A model generated the notes under the pieces. It was not told where the DNA came from. It ran no database searches and worked only from the letters and a program-made list of their open reading frames with translations. Source: Flavobacteriaceae bacterium (GTDB taxonomy: Bacteria; Bacteroidota; Bacteroidia; Flavobacteriales; Flavobacteriaceae). Taken from it: DNA of 64,000 nucleotides. The stretch covers positions 62,001 through 126,000 of the forward strand of contig JABSPK010000003.1 in the NCBI GenBank assembly GCA_013214065.1. Reading direction: 5' to 3'. This document shows, in pieces, positions 27,789 through 38,304 of this stretch (position 1 is its first letter; every line of letters starts with the position of its first letter). Position numbers and translations under genes: made by a program.

Positions 27789-28115
27789 TTATTTGAATAA
27801 AGAATCCATACCCGGTATGTTGGGCATCCCTTCTTTTGCCACTGCGGCCAATTCGGCTTCACTCACCGCACTTGCCTTGGCAATGGCCTTGTTGAGCGTC
27901 ACCACCAAAAGGTCCTCAAGCGCTTCCGGATCCTCAAAGAGCGAAGGATCAATGGTCAGTGATTTCACCTCCCGACTTGCTGTTAGGGTCACCTTGACCA
28001 AGCCATCGGCCCCAACTTCATCCAACAAAATAGTATGCAATCGCGCTTTGGTGGCTTCCACCTTTTTTTGGGTTTCCTTGAGCTTACCCATCATTCCCAT
28101 TAGATCTCCGAACAT
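27789..28115 (-). CDS. YbaB/EbfC family nucleoid-associated protein
   Basis: A 108-residue DNA-binding protein. It begins [23 protein letters not shown], the usual amphipathic helix, and contains the family core [20 protein letters not shown] and a helical end ([16 protein letters not shown]). Such proteins form homodimers that coat DNA and are usually linked to recR/dnaX; here they are not adjacent. Divergent from the S9 peptidase gene. Confidence 0.9.
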
Positions 28116-28216: not shown

Positions 28217-30283
28217 ATGGACAAGAAAATCAAAGCGGTTAAGGAACCGATTGCCAATAGAAAACCCGAGCTGCTGTCACTCCACGGGGATGACCGGATG
28301 GACGACTACTATTGGTTGAACGAACGGGAGAATCCTGAGGTCATCGATTACTTGAACGAAGAAAATGCATACTATCGGGCGAGAACCGCACACACGCAGC
28401 CTTTTCAGCAAGATCTTTTTGATGAAATGAAATCCCGGATCAAAGAGGATGACAGTTCGGTACCCTATTTGAAGAACGGATTCTATTATACCACACGCTA
28501 CGAACAGGGTAAGGAGTATCCGATCCATTCCCGAAAACTCGGGCATTTGGATGCCAATGAAGAAATCTTGTTCGATTGCAATACCCTGGCCAAGGGGCAC
28601 GATTACTTTCGCCTATCGGGCATTGCGATCAGTCCTGATAATCGCATGGCGGCCTTTGGCGTCGATACCGTGTCGCGCCGTCAGTATACCATACAGATCA
28701 AGGACTTGGACAATGGAACGATTTTCGAGGACAAGATCACCGATACGACCGGGAGTGCCACTTGGGCCGATGACAATCGCAGTCTATTTTATGTTAAAAA
28801 AGACCCGGTTACCTTGAGGGCCGATAAAGTATACAAGCATCGGTTGGGAACACCTGAAAGCGAAGATGAATTGGTATATCATGAAACGGATACCGCCTAC
28901 AACGTCTTTGTATATCGATGTAAATCAAGAAAGTACATTGTAATAGGTTCGGTGAGTACATTGACTTCGGAATATCGTTTTTTACCTGCCGACATCCCGG
29001 ATGGTGACTTTAAGGTGTTTGCACCACGACAACGTGGCGTGGAATATTCGATCTACCATTATGGCACCCATTTTTACGTATTGACCAACAAAGACGGGGC
29101 GACGAATTTCAAGTTGATGCAGGTAGAAGAGGGGGATACCGCTGCTAGTGGTTGGAAGGAGTTCATTCCACATCGGGAGACCGTATTGCTGGAGGATATC
29201 GATATTTTCAAAGATTACTATGTCTTGACCGAACGTCAACAAGGACTCAATACCCTACGGATAGTCCGATGGGACGGCTCACAGGATTATTACATGCCAT
29301 TCGATAGTGAGACCTATGTAGCAGGGCCAACGACCAATTTGGAATTCGATACCACCAAGTTCCGCTATTACTATAACGCCATGACCGCCCCATTCGCGAT
29401 CATCGAATATGATCTGGATTCAAGAACCCATGAAATCTTGAAGGAACAGGAGGTACTTGGGGGCCAATTCGACAAGGACAATTACCGTTCCAAGCGACTT
29501 TGGGCTACCGCGGAAGATGGGATAAAAGTACCCATATCCATCGTCTATCATAAGGATACGGAACACCATGGGAACAGCCCTTTACTACTGTATGCGTATG
29601 GTTCGTATGGATCGACCATCGATCCCTATTTTTCTTCCGTTCGATTAAGTCTTTTAGATCGCGGCTTTTCTTTTGCCATCGCCCATGTGCGGGGAGGGGA
29701 GTACCTTGGTAGGTCTTGGTATGACGATGGTAAGCTGTTGACGAAAAGGAACACCTTTACCGATTTCATTGCCTGTTCGGAATACTTGGTCGCAGAGGGG
29801 GTTGCCGATGCGAAGCGTTTGTATGCCATGGGGGGATCTGCCGGTGGACTTTTGATCGGTGCGGTAGTCAATATGCGCCCTGAATTATATCATGGTGCCA
29901 TTGCGGCGGTGCCTTTCGTTGATGTAGTCACGACCATGCTTGACGATAGTATTCCTTTGACGACGGGGGAGTATGATGAATGGGGCAATCCGAACGAAAA
30001 AACCTATTATGAATACATGAAATCGTATTCGCCCTACGACAATGTGAAAGCGCAAGACTACCCGAATATGTATGTATCTACCGGTTTGCATGACTCGCAA
30101 GTCCAATATTGGGAGCCTGCCAAATGGGTAGCCAAGCTACGCCGGTTCAAGACCGACACCAATGCCCTCTATCTGGATACCAATATGGAGGCAGGCCATG
30201 GAGGGGCCTCGGGGCGATTCGAAGCATTGAAGGAAACTGCCAAGGAATACGCCTTTTTACTGGATTTGGCCGGAAAAGGGTAG
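28217..30283 (+). CDS. S9 family serine peptidase (oligopeptidase B-like)
   Basis: A 688-residue prolyl-oligopeptidase family enzyme with no signal peptide. The N-terminal part is a beta-propeller (about residues 75-410); the C-terminal alpha/beta-hydrolase domain has the nucleophile in [12 protein letters not shown] (about residue 540) and the catalytic His in AGHGGASGR (about 660), plus the oxyanion-loop segment LLYAYGSYG. Length and [17 protein letters not shown]-like region match oligopeptidase B, which cuts short peptides after basic residues in the cytoplasm. Confidence 0.88.
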
Positions 30284-30353: not shown

Positions 30354-31394
30354 ATGGAAAACAATGTCAATGCGCATGACAGTATTTTGGAACTCGTTGG
30401 CAACACCCCGCTTGTCAAACTGAACAAAATCGCTGCCACGCTTTCCGGAAATTTCTATGCGAAATTGGAGGCCTTCAACCCAGGGCATTCGGCCAAGGAT
30501 CGGATTGCCGTACACATCATTGAAGAAGCCGAACGTAAGGGGCTTTTGAATGCCGACAGTACCATCATTGAAACCACCTCGGGCAATACGGGCTTTAGTT
30601 TGGCCATGGCCAGTATGGTGAAGGGCTTCCGTTGTATTTTGGCGGTAAGTTCAAAATCTTCACCCGATAAGATCGATATGCTCCGGGCCATGGGGGCCGA
30701 AGTTTATGTTTGTCCGGCCCATGTCAGTGCCGAAGATCCCCGATCGTATTACGAGGTCGCCAAAAGACTACATCGAGAAACACCGGGTTCGATTTATATC
30801 AACCAGTATTTCAATGAATTGAATATAGAGGCCCATTACAGGACCACCGGGCCGGAAATTTGGAAACAGACCAACGGTCGCATTACCCATCTAGTGGCAT
30901 GCAGCGGCACTGGGGGTACCATTTCAGGGACCGCCCGATTTTTGAAGGAGCAGAACCCCGATATCAAAGTATTGGGAGTCGATGCTTATGGTTCGGTGTT
31001 GAAGAAATACCACGAAACCGGCGAGTTCGATCAAGAGGAAATCTATCCCTACCGTATTGAAGGTTTGGGTAAAAACCTGATTCCTAAAGCCACCGATTTC
31101 AATACCATCGATCGCTATATTAAGGTGACTGATGCCGAGAGTGCCCATATGGCCCGTAAATTGGCACATTCTGAAGGAATGTTTGTGGGGTATACAAGTG
31201 GGGCGGCCATGCAGGCGGTGATGCAATACCAGACCGAAGGGGAATTCGATAAGCACAGTGAAGTCGTGGTGATCTTCCCAGATCATGGGTCCCGTTACAT
31301 GAGTAAAGTCTATAGCAACGAATGGATGGAAAACCAAGGTTTTTTCAACGAAACCAATGCCGCTGAACTCAAGAAGATCGAATACGTCAAATAA
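30354..31394 (+). CDS. PLP-dependent cysteine synthase/cystathionine beta-synthase family enzyme (possible cysteate synthase)
   Basis: A 346-residue fold-type II PLP enzyme. Motifs: [14 protein letters not shown] at the N-terminus, PLP lysine in [10 protein letters not shown] (about residue 47), substrate loop [11 protein letters not shown], phosphate loop [14 protein letters not shown], and the end [20 protein letters not shown] 30354 was chosen over an in-frame TTG at 30330. Family members make cysteine, cystathionine or, in sulfonolipid-producing Bacteroidota, cysteate. The next gene encodes a serine-palmitoyltransferase-like enzyme, so cysteate synthase for capnine is an attractive but unproven reading; ordinary cysteine synthase B is the main alternative. 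A terminator follows. Confidence 0.85.
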
Positions 31395-31514: not shown

Positions 31515-32774
31515 ATGAGAGATTTATTTGATCGGATTATTGAGAATAAAGGGCCTTTGGGTAAATGGGCATCCCAAGCTGAAGGTTATTTCGTATTTCC
31601 GAAGTTGGAAGGACCGATATCCAATCGTATGAAGTTTCGCGGAAAGGAAGTCATTACGTGGAGTATCAATGATTATTTAGGATTGGCCAACCTTCCAGAA
31701 ATCAAAAAAGTCGATTCCGAAGCTGCATTGGAGCATGGTTCGGCCTATCCTATGGGAGCTCGGATGATGAGTGGCCATACCGAATACCATGAGCAGTTGG
31801 AGAACGAATTGGCAGCTTTTGTCAATAAGGAAGCCTCTTACTTGTTGAATTTCGGGTATCAGGGGTTCATGTCGGTCATCGATGCCTTGGTGTCCAAAGA
31901 CGATATCATCGTGTATGATGTCGATTGCCACGCCTGTATCATAGATGGGGTGCGTTTGCACGTGGGCAAAAGGTTCACGTTCAAGCACAATGATGTCGAA
32001 AGCTTGGAGAAAAACCTCGAGCGTGCTACCAAAATGGCCCAAGAGACCGGAGGCGGTATCTTGGTCATTTCCGAAGGGGTCTTCGGGATGCGCGGCGAAC
32101 AAGGAAAATTGAAGGAAATCGTCGCCTTGAAGGAGCGTTTTAAATTCCGTCTTTTGGTCGATGACGCCCACGGCTTTGGAACCTTAGGGAAGACAGGGGC
32201 TGGTGCAGGCGAGGAGCAAGGGGTCCAAAACGATATCGATGTCTATTTGGCCACTTTCGCCAAATCAATGGCCGGAATCGGAGCCTTCGTTGCCGCAGAT
32301 CAAGAAATCATCGATTACCTTAAATACAACCTGCGTTCACAGATGTTCGCCAAGTCCTTGCCCATGATTTTTGTAAAAGGGGCTTTGAAGCGTTTGGACA
32401 TGTTGCGTACCATGCCGCAACTTAAAGCCAAGCTTTGGGAAAATGTAGATGCCTTGCAGAATGGATTGAAGGAACGTGGCTTTGATATCGGAACCACACA
32501 AAGTTGTGTGACCCCGGTATATTTGAACGGTAGTATCCCTGAAGCCATGGCCTTGGTAAAAGACCTACGCGAAAACTATGGTATCTTCTGTTCGATCGTT
32601 GTGTATCCGGTCATTCCAAAAGGATTGATCTTACTACGATTGATTCCGACGGCAACACATACCTTAGAGGATGTTGCGGAAACCTTGGATGCCTTCTCGG
32701 CAATTCGCGATCGTCTACAAAACGGAACCTATAAAAGGCTATCGGCTGCGGTTGCCGCTGCTATGGGCGAATAA
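31515..32774 (+). CDS. Alpha-oxoamine synthase: serine palmitoyltransferase / cysteate acyltransferase-like
   Basis: A 419-residue fold-type I PLP enzyme of the alpha-oxoamine synthase family (SPT, KBL, AONS, ALAS). The cofactor residues are visible: VDDAHGFGTLG (D217, H219) and the Schiff-base lysine K250 in TFAKSMAGIGAFVAA; GSAYPMGARMMSGHTEYH is the typical substrate-side segment. In Bacteroidota this length and sequence type condenses an amino acid with a fatty acyl thioester: serine for sphingoid bases or cysteate for capnine. The neighbouring cysteine-synthase-like gene favours the cysteate reaction; sequence alone cannot separate the two. Confidence 0.85.
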   Translation: MRDLFDRIIENKGPLGKWASQAEGYFVFPKLEGPISNRMKFRGKEVITWSINDYLGLANLPEIKKVDSEAALEHGSAYPMGARMMSGHTEYHEQLENELAAFVNKEASYLLNFGYQGFMSVIDALVSKDDIIVYDVDCHACIIDGVRLHVGKRFTFKHNDVESLEKNLERATKMAQETGGGILVISEGVFGMRGEQGKLKEIVALKERFKFRLLVDDAHGFGTLGKTGAGAGEEQGVQNDIDVYLATFAKSMAGIGAFVAADQEIIDYLKYNLRSQMFAKSLPMIFVKGALKRLDMLRTMPQLKAKLWENVDALQNGLKERGFDIGTTQSCVTPVYLNGSIPEAMALVKDLRENYGIFCSIVVYPVIPKGLILLRLIPTATHTLEDVAETLDAFSAIRDRLQNGTYKRLSAAVAAAMGE

Positions 32775-32796: not shown

Positions 32797-33342
32797 TTAT
32801 TGCGTTGTCTGGTTCGCTTTCTCCCGCTTTTTCTTTCGTTTTGCTTTGAAAAACGCTTTATCCGCGATATAAATCGTTTTGTGCACTTCGCAAAATACCG
32901 TTTCGAACGATCGGTCTTGAAGGCGGGTGATCTTGACAATATCGATTTCCTTTTCCTTCGCGACCCGTTGCTTGATCACTTCAATTTCTTCATCGGTAAT
33001 GGTGAACCGTGCATATAAGTCGGATTTGGCAGGTCTTTTGAAGAATATTTGGGCCGATTTATCCCAAACGACATAGTCTTTTCCCAATAAATTCATCAGT
33101 TGTACCATGGGTATGGGGTCTACGGCTGAAAACATGCTTCCACCGAAAATTGAATTCACATAGTTCCTGTTCTTATAAGAAATGGGAAGCTTGATGTCGA
33201 TTTGCTTCAGATCCTTGGAAACAGCGCGTATTTTGGCCGTACTTCGGCGGTACATGGGCGACCAATTGAAACCGTGTTTGAACAAGGTGGCCTTTCCGAT
33301 GAATTTAGATCCGATTTCAGTGAATCGTTGATAGAATGACAT
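32797..33342 (-). CDS. DUF4442 (hot-dog thioesterase-fold) protein
   Basis: A 181-residue protein with a hot-dog-like core: IDIKLPISYKNRNYVNSIFGGSMFSAVDPIPMVQLM, with the GGSMFSAVDP segment in the place of the thioesterase active-site helix, followed by strands FFKRPAKSDLYARF and SFETVFCEVHKTIYIA. It ends in a very basic tail (KAKRKKKREKANQTTQ). DUF4442 proteins are inferred acyl-thioesterase relatives, without a proven substrate. It lies one base downstream of the GNAT-fold gene, so the two are co-transcribed, and it converges on the acyltransferase gene; a role in acyl chain handling is plausible. Confidence 0.78.
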   Translation of the reverse strand: MSFYQRFTEIGSKFIGKATLFKHGFNWSPMYRRSTAKIRAVSKDLKQIDIKLPISYKNRNYVNSIFGGSMFSAVDPIPMVQLMNLLGKDYVVWDKSAQIFFKRPAKSDLYARFTITDEEIEVIKQRVAKEKEIDIVKITRLQDRSFETVFCEVHKTIYIADKAFFKAKRKKKREKANQTTQ

Positions 33343-33343
33343 G

Positions 33344-34465
33344 CTAAACCAAGTTTTTGCGGTAGGTGCGGCGCTTTTTATGTGTCCAGGGTTTGAAGTG
33401 TTTCCACATTTGGAAAATCGCCGTATTCTCTTCCAATTCCGGGGTGCGTATGCAATTCACTATTCCTTTGGCCGTAAAGGTGTCGTGGTATTCATTGAAA
33501 ATTATGGCGGTAACGCCTTTGTTCTGATACTCAGGGTGGATGCCGATCAAATAAAAGGTAACGTCCTTACTGTGTTTTCGCGCTTGTAGCAAATGATAAA
33601 AGCCGAAGGGGAACAACTTCCCTTTCGCCTTCTGGAGTGCTTTCGCGAAAGAAGGCATGACTATGGCAAAAGCGACCAGTTTATCGTTGCTGTCGATCAC
33701 GAATTTGATATATTCCGGATTGATGAAGCCGATATACTTCTTTTTGAAATAAGCTTTTTGCGTCTCATTGATCTTGACGAAAGACGAAAGTTTGGCATAG
33801 CTCTCATTGAAAAGATCGAACATTTGATCGACCCAAGGCATGATATCCCTGCTATTGGTGAAATTGAGCTCGCGAAGACCGTAGCGCTTCTTGATCAAGA
33901 AGTTCGCCTTTTCGAAACTCTCTTTTTTGGCATTGGAAAAAAGGAACTTGTTCTCCAAATAGCCTTTTTCCTTTACCATTCCGAAAGATTCGTAATGCTT
34001 GATGTAATACGGATGGTTGTACCAGGTGATCATGGTTCCCAGATGGTCGAACCCCTCGGTCATTACCCCGACCTTATCCAGATTGGAAAAGCCTACCGGC
34101 CCTTCCATATACTCCAATTGATGGCGCCTTCCGACTTCGGCGACCTGTTCTAGCAGGGCTTTGGATACTTCGAGATCATCGATGAAGTCGAACCAACCGA
34201 AGCGCATTTTCTTTAACCCTTGATCCTTGACTTCGGCCCAATTGACAATAGCGGCCACCCTACCCACAGCGACACCGTTCTTATAAGCCAAGTAAAATTC
34301 GGCTTCGGCTGTTTCGAATGCTGGATTCCTCTTTCGATCGAAGGTTTCCAGTTCTTCTTTGATAATAGGGGGTACCCAATAGGGCGAATCCTTATAGATT
34401 GAAAACGGAAATTTGACGAATGCTTTGAAATCAGCCTTTGAGGAAACTTCTTTGATGGTGACCAT
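33344..34465 (-). CDS. GNAT-fold N-acyltransferase-like protein
   Basis: A 373-residue protein with an N-terminal GNAT-like half (YKDSPYWVPPIIKEE, EAEFYLAYKNGVAVGRVAAIVN) and a C-terminal half bearing the CoA-binding pattern TFYLIGIHPEYQNKGVTAII (about residue 320). Related flavobacterial genes are, from memory, often mislabelled GTP cyclohydrolase. GNAT-type proteins of this size include the bacterial ceramide synthase that N-acylates sphingoid bases; location beside an SPT-like gene makes an N-acyltransferase of capnine or a sphingoid base a reasonable hypothesis. It could equally be an unrelated acetyltransferase. Confidence 0.7.
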   Translation of the reverse strand: MVTIKEVSSKADFKAFVKFPFSIYKDSPYWVPPIIKEELETFDRKRNPAFETAEAEFYLAYKNGVAVGRVAAIVNWAEVKDQGLKKMRFGWFDFIDDLEVSKALLEQVAEVGRRHQLEYMEGPVGFSNLDKVGVMTEGFDHLGTMITWYNHPYYIKHYESFGMVKEKGYLENKFLFSNAKKESFEKANFLIKKRYGLRELNFTNSRDIMPWVDQMFDLFNESYAKLSSFVKINETQKAYFKKKYIGFINPEYIKFVIDSNDKLVAFAIVMPSFAKALQKAKGKLFPFGFYHLLQARKHSKDVTFYLIGIHPEYQNKGVTAIIFNEYHDTFTAKGIVNCIRTPELEENTAIFQMWKHFKPWTHKKRRTYRKNLV

Positions 34466-34525: not shown

Positions 34526-35494
34526 CTAAAAATCGATGGTGGAATCCTTTTTCTTTTTCTTCCTTTTTTTCTTTTTCATGCTTTTACGGGAAATCTTGGT
34601 CTGTGGTTTTTCCTCGTTGATGGGAATCAGCTGGTCTCTGTGAAAATCCAATCGATACGACAAGCCCGTAGTGACGAACATTCGTGACGGGGTGTTTTTA
34701 AAGCTTCCACCCAAACTGATATCAGCTTGGAAATTCGGACTGAACAGATGGGCGATTCCCCCACGTATGAGCGCATCGGAATAACGATCACTGTCGATTC
34801 CCTGGTGTTCTCCGAAAACACTCCATTTTGGATTGCGAAAGGCATGCGAAACGGAAATGATATAGCTTAGTTCAGGAAAATCGGTGCTAATCCGGTCGTA
34901 AGCGATGTTCGTGATCAACACCCATCTTGGGGTCAAACGGCTTTGGGTGGCGATCATGGCCCGATACGAAATGGTGGCATCTTCAGGGTAAAATGGATTG
35001 TCGCCCAAGTTGAACGTGGCCCCACCATATAGCGAAACGGCTGGCAATAGGTTCTTGAACCTAAATTTATGGTTGGCCCGCCAGCTGTATAAATTGGGTT
35101 TGTTCGCTTCTGGATTTTTGAAGGGGTCGTACACTAGGTATTTCAGACCCAATCGGTTTCTTGAAAAGTCGGTTCGTGTCTCTTCGCGACCGAAATTATT
35201 GAAGGTCAGATTTTGATTGATAAAGGTACCCTCATAGTTGATCTCAAGGTTTTCCAACAACAGCCCGTAGCGCAGTGACAGATCCGCACCCAATATATTC
35301 GATTCGTTATTGAAATCGGTATGGTCACGTTGCTCATACATTACCCCGAATTCGGCCTGCACCACATTGCGTCCGACGGCGTAGGCACTGACAGACTGCC
35401 CAGGACGGTTCGAATTGATCACATCGGTATATTGGGCTTGACCCATACCGGTCAGGGCTAAAAACAAGAGAAACGATAGTTTTTTGGGAGCCAT
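34526..35494 (-). CDS. Outer membrane beta-barrel protein (MetA-pathway transporter-like)
   Basis: A 322-residue protein starting at the signal peptide MAPKKLSFLLFLALTGMGQAQ (ATG at 35494; ATG at 35524 would add ten residues). The opening TDVINSNRPGQSVSAYAVGRNVVQAEFGVMYE resembles the family annotated as putative MetA-pathway-of-phenol-degradation transporter: a small outer membrane barrel of alternating strands (LEINYEGTFI, HKFRFKNLLPAVSLYGG). The C-terminus is an unusual lysine run (MKKKKRKKKKKDSTIDF) that should face the periplasm. The substrate is unknown. Confidence 0.75.
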   Translation of the reverse strand: MAPKKLSFLLFLALTGMGQAQYTDVINSNRPGQSVSAYAVGRNVVQAEFGVMYEQRDHTDFNNESNILGADLSLRYGLLLENLEINYEGTFINQNLTFNNFGREETRTDFSRNRLGLKYLVYDPFKNPEANKPNLYSWRANHKFRFKNLLPAVSLYGGATFNLGDNPFYPEDATISYRAMIATQSRLTPRWVLITNIAYDRISTDFPELSYIISVSHAFRNPKWSVFGEHQGIDSDRYSDALIRGGIAHLFSPNFQADISLGGSFKNTPSRMFVTTGLSYRLDFHRDQLIPINEEKPQTKISRKSMKKKKRKKKKKDSTIDF

Positions 35495-35576
35495 CACTGA
35501 TTTTAATACTATTTTATGATACATTTTATCGGTTTGCAGGACTTACGATGTAATTTTAGATCAATAGTAAAAGTGT

Positions 35577-35862: not shown

Positions 35863-38304
35863 ATGAAGTTTTCTGCCAAAGCATTCTTCACCCATATTCC
35901 GGTACTTCTTGTTTTCGCGATCATCTCTTTGGTGTATTTCTATCCTGTGTTACAGGGGCGTGCCCTGTACCAATCCGATATTGCCCTTTACAAGGGCATG
36001 GCCAAAGAACGCAATGATTACAAGGCGAATACGGGTATCGAATCGTATTGGACGAACAGTGCTTTCGCGGGCATGCCCACCTACCAATTAGGAGCGAACT
36101 ACCCTCATGACTATGTCAAGAAACTCGACCGTCTCATACGTTTCTTGCCGAGACCTGCCGACTACTTGTTTTTATACTTTATCGGCTTTTATATTTTGAT
36201 GCTTTGCATGAAAGTCGATTTCCGTCTAGCCGCTTTGGGGGCATTGGCCTTCGGATTTTCTACTTATCTCATCATCATCTTAGGGGTAGGGCATAACGCC
36301 AAGGCCCATGCTTTGGGATACCTGCCTATGGTGCTTGGTGGTATCGTTTTGACGTTTCGAAAAAAGTACCTCTGGGGTTTTATCTTGACTGCTGTGGCTA
36401 TGGCGTTGGAAATCAGTGCCAACCACTATCAGATGACCTATTACTTCATGCTTTTGGTGCTGCTATTGGGGCTGGTACAGTTGATTTATGCCATCAAGGA
36501 CAAAGCGCTCAAACATTTTTTCGCCACTGTGGGCATTTTGGTGTTGGCCGTACTCTTGGGTATCGCGACAAATGCCACTGGTCTCATGGCCACCAAGGAA
36601 TATGCCGATTGGAGTACGCGTGGTACTTCCGAATTGACGATAAACAGTGATGGCAGTCCGAAAGAAGCGAAAAGTGGATTGGATCGTGACTACATCACCT
36701 ATTATAGTTATGGAGTCACCGAATCATTGAACCTCTTCGTACCGCGCTTGTTCGGGGGATCGGGGAAGGAAGAACTTGGCCGTGACTCCAAAGTATACGA
36801 ATACTTGACTGACCAGGGGTTCTCGCCGACCCAAGCCCTTGAGATTTCAGGCCTATACCTGTATTGGGGGCCGCATCCGATGTCGGGCCCGGCAGCGCCG
36901 GCCTATGTGGGGGCGTTGATCATTTTCTTATTCGTGTTGTCGTTGTTCGTGGTCAAAGGAAAAAAGAAATGGTGGCTCTTAGGAGGGGTATTGTTATCAC
37001 TGATGCTTTCTTGGGGAAAGTACTTTCCGGCACTGACCGATTTTATGATCGATTATTTCCCCTTGTATAATAAATTCAGGGCCGTTTCGTCCATTCAAGT
37101 CATCCTTGAACTATGTATCCCTATCTTGGCCATCTTGGGATTAAAGGAAGTGTTCAAGAAATCGGACCGACCCTCCGCAATCCTCAATGCTTTGAAGTGG
37201 AGTACCTTGATGACTTTAGGTCATGGGGTGGCTATTTTCATCGGTAAGGCCTTCTTTGATTTTGAGGGATCCAATGATGCGCGTTTCCAACAGTATTTTG
37301 GGGAGTCTTTGGTCGAGATACTGCGCAGTGACCGTGAAGCGGTATATGTCAACGATACCCTGCGCAGTTTGCTATTCGTAGCCCTTGGTGCAGCGGTATT
37401 GTTTATCTATCTAAAGGGCGGTCTGAAAAAGAACCTTGCCATCGGGGCCTTGGCCATCGTCTTGCTTTTTGATTTGGTCGGGGTAGACCGCAGGTATGTC
37501 AATGCCGAGGATTTCGTTCGTAGAAGGGCGGTCGAACAGCCTTTTCAAGCTAGCGCCATGGACCAACAGATCCTCCAAGATAAAGCGGTGTTCAGGGTAT
37601 TCGATCCTTCGGAAGGATTGAACGGATCCCGAACCAGTTATTTCCACAAATCCATAGGCGGGTATCACGCCGCAAAACCCGCAAAATTGCAAGATTTGGT
37701 AGAATTCCATCTGTATAGGAACAATCTCGAGGTCTTGAATATGTTGAATGTCAAATACGTCATTCAACAGGATGAGGAGGGAAGGAGTTTTCCCGGACTA
37801 AACGACGGCGCGAACGGCAACGCCTGGTTCGTCTCTAGGATCAAGGCAGTCGAAAGTTCCGATGCGGCGATCAGGGCCTTGGACAGTATCAATAGCAAAT
37901 CGGAAGCCATTGTCGATGTACGCAAGTATCCTACCTTGACAAAACGGTATTACGAGGTCGATTCAACGGCCAGCATCCAAGTTTTGGACCATCGACCGAA
38001 TACGATCCGCTATCGTACCGAGAATACGAACGAAGGCTTTGTAGTGTTTTCGGAAATGCATTATCCTAAAGGATGGCAGGCTTTTGTTGATGGTGCGCCA
38101 GTCGATCATTATGTGGTGAACTATGCCTTGAGGGGTATGCCCCTTGCTGCGGGCCAACATGAGGTAGAATTCCGTTTCGAACCCGAAGTAGTGCGAACCG
38201 GAAGCACCATAGCACTGGCTAGTAATCTCTTACTTGGCTTGGTAGTTCTGGGAGGCTTGTTCGTAGGATTTCGGGGCACCAAACCCAAAAAAAAGAAAGA
38301 CTGA
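35863..38304 (+). CDS. YfhO family multi-pass membrane protein (GT-C-like)
   Basis: An 813-residue protein with about 13 hydrophobic segments, followed by a large soluble domain and one last membrane segment (LASNLLLGLVVLGGLFVGF). The luminal loop motif GRALYQSDIALYKGMAKERNDY and SYGVTESLNLFVPRLFGGSG are typical of YfhO relatives, which resemble GT-C lipid-linked sugar transferases. Known relatives glycosylate teichoic acid in Gram-positives; the substrate here is unknown. Stop and start with the following glycosyltransferase overlap as TGATG, so translation is coupled. Confidence 0.85.
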   Translation: MKFSAKAFFTHIPVLLVFAIISLVYFYPVLQGRALYQSDIALYKGMAKERNDYKANTGIESYWTNSAFAGMPTYQLGANYPHDYVKKLDRLIRFLPRPADYLFLYFIGFYILMLCMKVDFRLAALGALAFGFSTYLIIILGVGHNAKAHALGYLPMVLGGIVLTFRKKYLWGFILTAVAMALEISANHYQMTYYFMLLVLLLGLVQLIYAIKDKALKHFFATVGILVLAVLLGIATNATGLMATKEYADWSTRGTSELTINSDGSPKEAKSGLDRDYITYYSYGVTESLNLFVPRLFGGSGKEELGRDSKVYEYLTDQGFSPTQALEISGLYLYWGPHPMSGPAAPAYVGALIIFLFVLSLFVVKGKKKWWLLGGVLLSLMLSWGKYFPALTDFMIDYFPLYNKFRAVSSIQVILELCIPILAILGLKEVFKKSDRPSAILNALKWSTLMTLGHGVAIFIGKAFFDFEGSNDARFQQYFGESLVEILRSDREAVYVNDTLRSLLFVALGAAVLFIYLKGGLKKNLAIGALAIVLLFDLVGVDRRYVNAEDFVRRRAVEQPFQASAMDQQILQDKAVFRVFDPSEGLNGSRTSYFHKSIGGYHAAKPAKLQDLVEFHLYRNNLEVLNMLNVKYVIQQDEEGRSFPGLNDGANGNAWFVSRIKAVESSDAAIRALDSINSKSEAIVDVRKYPTLTKRYYEVDSTASIQVLDHRPNTIRYRTENTNEGFVVFSEMHYPKGWQAFVDGAPVDHYVVNYALRGMPLAAGQHEVEFRFEPEVVRTGSTIALASNLLLGLVVLGGLFVGFRGTKPKKKKD

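Follow-up and report, generated by a model that had tools for sequence, protein, structure and literature searches.

A tandem-GNAT protein of the bacterial ceramide synthase family beside CapA and CapB: a candidate sulfonolipid N-acyltransferase in Flavobacteriaceae

Which protein attaches the second fatty chain of a sulfonolipid is the question raised by a locus of a Flavobacteriaceae bacterium (GCA_013214065.1, contig JABSPK010000003.1), where a GNAT-type gene lies close to CapA and CapB in the 64,000-nucleotide stretch of DNA that was analysed, here called the window. Sulfonolipids have been tied to gliding, have effects on immune cells and induce rosettes in choanoflagellates, according to the accessible portions of two reports (PMC10191378; PMC11211663). 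In the former, as far as its available text goes, the CapA, CapB and CapC steps are followed by an N-acylation that is given without an enzyme, and the available text of the latter identifies the third of four steps (PMC10191378; PMC11211663). No named enzyme for sulfonolipid N-acylation was found in the open-access literature, and subscription papers may say more. The window shares CapA and CapB with the CapA-CapB-CapC / Cys-CFAT-KCR / SulA pathway, both close to the GNAT gene; in the open-access papers, enzymes are named for the steps to cysteate, 3-ketocapnine and capnine and for none beyond, to which the GNAT protein would add N-acylation.

Gene content of the locus

The features discussed below are the following.

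30354..31394 (+): CapA, cysteate synthase, 346 aa; NCBIfam NF053679, 649.1 bits, cut-off 600
31515..32774 (+): CapB, cysteate C-fatty acyltransferase (CFAT), 419 aa; 714.9 bits to PDB 28eh, 570 bits to 7u7h
32797..33342 (-): DUF4442 protein, 181 aa; PF14539
33344..34465 (-): GNAT protein of tandem type and of the bacterial ceramide synthase family, 373 aa; candidate for N-acylating capnine or 3-ketocapnine
33500..33535 (-): CoA-loop-like segment PEYQNKGVTAII of the GNAT protein, residues 311-322; coordinates derived from residue numbers
34526..35524 (-): outer-membrane-barrel-type protein, PF13557; 60 bp upstream of the GNAT gene on the same strand

CapA is an NCBIfam equivalog match above its cut-off (NF053679), and CapB is assigned by homology to PDB 28eh (E 2.5e-214), scoring 284.6 bits against the Bacteroidetes SPT model, for which the cut-off is 640. 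Because of these CapA and CapB matches and the SPT score under the cut-off, the locus is taken to carry the first two sulfonolipid genes and not an SPT, and the gene described as SPT-like in an earlier sequence-only reading (31515..32774, plus strand) is CapB/CFAT rather than SPT. The two ORFs which that reading placed next to it are both present as described (373 and 181 aa), with DUF4442 downstream of GNAT on the same minus strand and one base between them. The 3' end of CapB (plus strand) lies 22 bases from the end of DUF4442 (minus strand), and since these two genes are on opposite strands, the four genes form two convergent pairs and not a single operon. Promoter and terminator scans gave nothing beyond the level of shuffled sequence.

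The nearest matches of the GNAT protein (74-79% identical) are from Croceitalea, Flagellimonas and Allomuricauda records, and many Flavobacteriaceae keep orthologues at 69-79% identity, a conservation which argues that the ORFs are not chance. The PF13557 outer-membrane gene, found in 78 of 80 relatives' loci, is the probable operon partner of GNAT, and this gene, lying 5' of GNAT, may connect an outer-membrane protein with the making of sulfonolipids. The ORF at 35863 is presumably YfhO. On the other side, a prolyl oligopeptidase (S9, 28217-30283) and YbaB (27789-28115) adjoin CapA and are syntenic in relatives too.

Relationship of the GNAT protein to bacterial ceramide synthases

The sequence-only reading had named a profile comparison with bacterial ceramide synthase (bCerS) as one that could overturn its proposal of an N-acyltransferase. 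The comparison set consisted of plasmid-borne proteins of Roseomonas, Pseudomonas sp. BYT-5 and P. veronii (YghO), together with E. coli YghO. When 20 GNAT orthologues were aligned by hhalign with the three proteobacterial CerS proteins, a probability of 100 was obtained (E 1.4e-44) over 366 columns at 23% identity. Pairwise comparisons gave 107-126 bits across GNAT residues 1/2-372, with full-length matches to the proteins of Roseomonas (25.7% identity, 126 bits), BYT-5 (23.6%, 117 bits) and P. veronii (24%, 107 bits), and E. coli YghO matched at 26% identity (E 1e-29). Other GNATs of solved structure matched the window protein along some 50 residues with no phmmer E better than 0.25, their best E in a profile search being 0.0036. 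The homology to CerS is thus full-length and goes beyond the generic GNAT fold, and the assignment as an N-acyltransferase stands as the best available.

In the BYT-5 cluster, the aminotransferase passes the SPT model NF047599 (615.5 over 500), and the genes with it encode an NAD-dependent epimerase, a fatty acyl-AMP ligase and a protein that binds phosphopantetheine. The P. veronii synthase also passes NF047599 (612.4), and E. coli yghO lies beside an aminotransferase, an ACP, an epimerase and an acyl-AMP ligase in what is, by annotation, a BYT-5-like arrangement. The Roseomonas stretch holds lipid and LptF/G genes, and SPT was not found within the part examined. The window protein is homologous from end to end to CerS proteins whose genes accompany spt-acpR-cerR-aasR, the trait by which membership of the bCerS sequence family was judged.

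The tags CC_1154 and CCNA_01212 are taken here to be one gene. In the available part of one report, yghO (ECD_02850) is listed together with CC_1154 (PMC9386255), one of several genes that Caulobacter needs in order to make dihydroceramide, as described in the available text of two papers (PMC9386255; PMC11324152), and BF9343_4218 is the B. fragilis CerS as cited in the accessible text of PMC10865984. With these bCerS/CerS/Aca proteins (Caulobacter CC_1154, E. coli YghO, B. fragilis BF9343_4218) the window GNAT shares size, full-length homology, a tandem GNAT architecture and a link to an alpha-oxoamine synthase. It differs in that the partner is CapB (cysteate), whereas that of bCerS is SPT (serine), in having neither an acyl carrier protein gene nor one for a CerR-type epimerase beside it, and in its identity to the proteobacterial proteins of only 23-26%. 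Another relative is the Bacteroidaceae GNAT encoded beside parE-coaD-S41 (Bacteroides finegoldii WP_007747535.1, Phocaeicola, Prevotella), which is 37-38% identical over its full length and, unlike the window GNAT, is not beside CapB. The Bacteroides and Prevotella GNAT proteins are 57% identical to each other, in agreement with the CerS identity of over 50% between Prevotella copri and Bacteroides given in the available text of PMC10865984.

As the sequence-only reading had described, the protein is similar in size to bCerS (373 aa, against 374-385 aa in the three proteobacterial CerS proteins) and has a CoA-loop-like segment, PEYQNKGVTAII, in which, across 20 orthologues, P311 and G317 never vary while Q314, K316 and A320 hardly do, G317 being invariant in both alignments A1 and A2. 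It matches Pfam Acetyltransf_1 at 23.7 bits (cut-off 20.7), and its AlphaFold model (mean pLDDT 92.4, pTM 0.88) is a tandem GNAT, so that the predicted model has the architecture of about 375 aa seen in the bCerS family. The model has the same fold as MAB_4324 (7q3a; Z 22.2, 303 residues, rmsd 3.5) and shares a fold with N-myristoyltransferase 1nmt (Z 14.8, 281 residues, rmsd 4.9), and the identity of the tandem GNAT acetyltransferases (7q3a, 5kf1, MshD 1ozp) and 1nmt to the window protein is 8-13%. Its top structural matches are acetyltransferases of sugars and thiols, no bCerS structure was among the PDB sequence matches or the listed structural matches, and a viral library search returned GNAT-fold and N-myristoyltransferase-type proteins with no functional lead; likeness of the modelled fold says nothing about substrate.

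Genomic partners of the GNAT family in Bacteroidia

Coupling to CapA and CapB was examined in 40 relatives, the window's own genome included, with a single-sequence search and a GNAT threshold of 150 bits. GNAT was present in 28 of 34 relatives with CapB and in 0 of 6 without (p 2.4e-4). It was also present in 22 of the 23 whose CapA scores at least 490 bits, as opposed to 6 of 17 others (p 5.2e-5); both p values are uncorrected for phylogeny. In 15 of the 28, CapB is at most 1 kb from GNAT, 14 of these being in the window's family and one (G030) in another, where a 285-aa SDR directly after CapB (L176:4165-6318) is a candidate 3-ketocapnine reductase. The six CapB-positive relatives lacking a GNAT of at least 150 bits comprise three with a distant member (G022, G031, G038) and three with none (G007, G029, G037); in G029 and G037, a profile search likewise found no GNAT of the family. 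In G007 and in a further genome, G203, CapA-CapB is kept, and a search with the family profile at a limit of E 0.01 also found no GNAT. Their loci (L184 in G203, L185 in G007) keep CapA-CapB and the flanking peptidase and YbaB, and the CapB proteins of G203 and G007 score 699 and 708 bits against 28eh (715 for the window's CapB); these genomes may have another N-acyltransferase or free capnine lipids.

Among 80 close loci, CapB is in reach in 53, always convergent and with a gap of at most 250 bp in 26, and was not found in the sequence covered at the other 27. The adjacency of CapB and GNAT in Flavobacteriaceae is mostly inherited synteny, since the whole stretch is syntenic, the outer-membrane gene being matched in 78 of the 80 loci and the next gene in 77. 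The Flavobacteriaceae neighbourhood was accordingly for the most part set aside as independent evidence, and weight was moved to the coupling with SPT in other families, because the flanking genes are conserved as well. The sequence-only reading had offered a four-gene block of 4 kb, of which CapA-CapB and GNAT do recur in Flavobacteriaceae, mostly as synteny, and the fourth gene, DUF4442, does not. A tree from a quick search unites the CapB-adjacent GNATs (SH-aLRT support 97) within a larger clade to which SPT-adjacent GNATs belong as well.

For the class as a whole, 295 Bacteroidia genomes were sampled. SPT over the cut-off occurs in 23 of them; the GNAT profile matches 206 at E 1e-5, and 73 reach 200 bits, a line picked after the scores were known. 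By that line, GNAT is found in all 23 SPT genomes versus 50 of the 272 others (Fisher 5.5e-16), and, within seven families containing both SPT and non-SPT genomes, a stratification defined post hoc with the data known, in 14 of 14 versus 2 of 36 (joint p 1.4e-7). The two genes are at most 1 kb apart in 15 of the 23. In eight loci that were examined, the synthase adjoins GNAT and the two are joined by an NAD-dependent epimerase-type protein of about 330 aa (Pfam on three); the synthase passes the SPT cut-off in seven, the eighth (L177) scoring 545. Three loci, L159, L165 and L166, combine an SPT (674, 693 and 684 bits over 640) with a GNAT from the subfamily to which the window protein belongs. 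SPT also occurs without CapB in nine genomes, all nine of which have GNAT; in five of these (f47), the neighbours of GNAT are an S41 peptidase gene and one of parE type, as in Bacteroides finegoldii, with SPT elsewhere in the genome and CapB absent. The accessible part of PMC11324152 has cerS always in an operon separate from the de novo genes, and that of PMC11334938 has the three genes not close in sphingolipid-producing Bacteroidota, statements from which, as they stand in those parts, the clusters of SPT, GNAT and epimerase (L190, L189, L191, L193, L159, L165, L166) depart.

The window genome (G000) has one GNAT member of the bCerS-related family and no SPT at E 1e-150, the best score being 334 bits (cut-off 640). 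A ceramide synthase in the strict sense would have a serine-derived base available from an SPT in its genome; as the window genome is without an SPT over the cut-off, its GNAT is filed as a family relative rather than a ceramide synthase.

At E 1e-90 or better, CapB-like proteins are found in 258 of the 295 genomes, 60-79% identical among the matches listed, the window's own aside, which is seemingly far wider than known sulfonolipid producers. Among the 272 SPT-negative genomes, GNAT is present in 48 of 244 with CapB versus 2 of 28 without (p 0.078); co-occurrence with CapA/CapB is seen in Flavobacteriales, with exceptions, and is weak class-wide. With GNAT in just 48 of 244, a different enzyme would be needed in the remaining 196 genomes with CapB, and because of this weak link GNAT is not a general answer for all bearers of CapB, or many of them N-acylate otherwise or not at all. 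GNAT with neither CapB nor SPT was found in two genomes (G233, G313). Alistipes, a known sulfonolipid producer, was not found in the sample: the 7u7h chain, which we take to be its SulA, had no match at E 1e-200 in the 295 genomes, a result that is uninformative with no positive in the set.

Alternative readings and a proposed role

The sequence-only reading had cast DUF4442 as the operon partner of GNAT in acyl handling, and the one-base gap, the shared strand and a weak YiiD_C thioesterase-like match would suit a two-gene unit of transferase and thioesterase-type partner dedicated to sulfonolipids. The ORF matches PF14539 (47.2 bits, cut-off 25), which we take to be of the hot-dog class, and its YiiD_C and TIGR00369 matches are weak and both under cut-off. 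Against such a unit, DUF4442 is beside GNAT in none of 29 (L002-L030) and none of 80 (L031-L110) other loci (0/109), some of which end shortly past GNAT. The slot between GNAT and CapB in relatives holds hydrolase-, kinase-, amidohydrolase-like or other genes, or nothing, as judged from translations. DUF4442 homologues are encoded elsewhere in other genomes, occurring in 8 of the 40 relatives (the window's own genome counted), with none beside GNAT in four other homologue-bearing regions examined. The neighbourhood largely refutes the unit, which is highly improbable, and DUF4442 was rejected as a member of the block; it is probably a lineage-specific insert between convergent genes, outside the conserved system, and is not needed to explain GNAT and CapB. 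What occupies this convergent gene end varies, close relatives carrying differing inserts there (L032, L035, L036, L047, L055, L070). A literature search on the term DUF4442 found no functional study.

Two further readings concern the substrate. GNAT may be a long-chain-base N-acyltransferase of the bCerS family that acts on another substrate, such as recycled bases, bases imported from outside, or what a second alpha-oxoamine synthase of this genome produces, with CapB nearby as inherited synteny. This would fit the genomes with CapA and CapB that lack GNAT (G007, G203), those with GNAT and neither CapB nor SPT (G233, G313), the weak class-wide link to CapB and the salvage role for CerS raised in the available text of PMC11324152; it is unlikely, given that GNAT tracks CapB and CapA in Flavobacteriales and that nothing in the window genome passes the SPT cut-off. 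Alternatively, the protein may transfer an acyl or acetyl group to some other amine, its resemblance to CerS being old ancestry only, as the 23-26% identity, the acetyltransferases of sugars and thiols at the top of the structural matches and the unrelated neighbourhoods of weaker relatives, some with nucleotide-sugar genes, could suggest. These weaker relatives were sampled at 20 loci, 19 of them in one clade; SDRs of a single cluster occur at five, and no CapB or SPT is labelled. The window GNAT's own subfamily stands in SPT operons (L159, L165, L166) and the GNAT family is in every SPT genome sampled, which makes this reading quite improbable. A distant tandem-GNAT group (L209-L211, L216, L217, L226) lies beside nucleotide-sugar-type or SDR genes.

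The preferred reading is that the GNAT protein belongs to the bCerS/CerS/YghO family and has CapB, not SPT, as its long-chain-base partner here, which the full-length homology and the gene couplings make likely, and it is, with good probability, a credible candidate for the sulfonolipid N-acyltransferase within the bacterial ceramide synthase family. Of the sequence-only reading as a whole, the candidate N-acyltransferase has held and DUF4442 as a conserved partner has fallen. The base available to GNAT is most likely capnine or 3-ketocapnine, because of the coupling to CapA/CapB in Flavobacteriales and the lack of an SPT over the cut-off in the window genome. In the proposed mechanism, GNAT would N-acylate capnine or 3-ketocapnine and so add the second fatty chain of the sulfonolipid; we infer its catalysis, substrate, acyl donor and the order of reduction and acylation. 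That it is a dedicated capnine N-acyltransferase, the last sulfonolipid enzyme in Flavobacteriaceae, arising through a partner swap from SPT to CapB and with the outer-membrane barrel gene co-travelling, is a reading toward which the balance tips slightly.

One named gene can thus be deleted or expressed in a genetically workable relative, F. johnsoniae being a genetically workable strain. If it is true that GNAT changed partner from SPT to the cysteate acyltransferase, then sphingolipid and sulfonolipid pathways would share one N-acyltransferase family, and the two pathways would meet at a single enzyme family.
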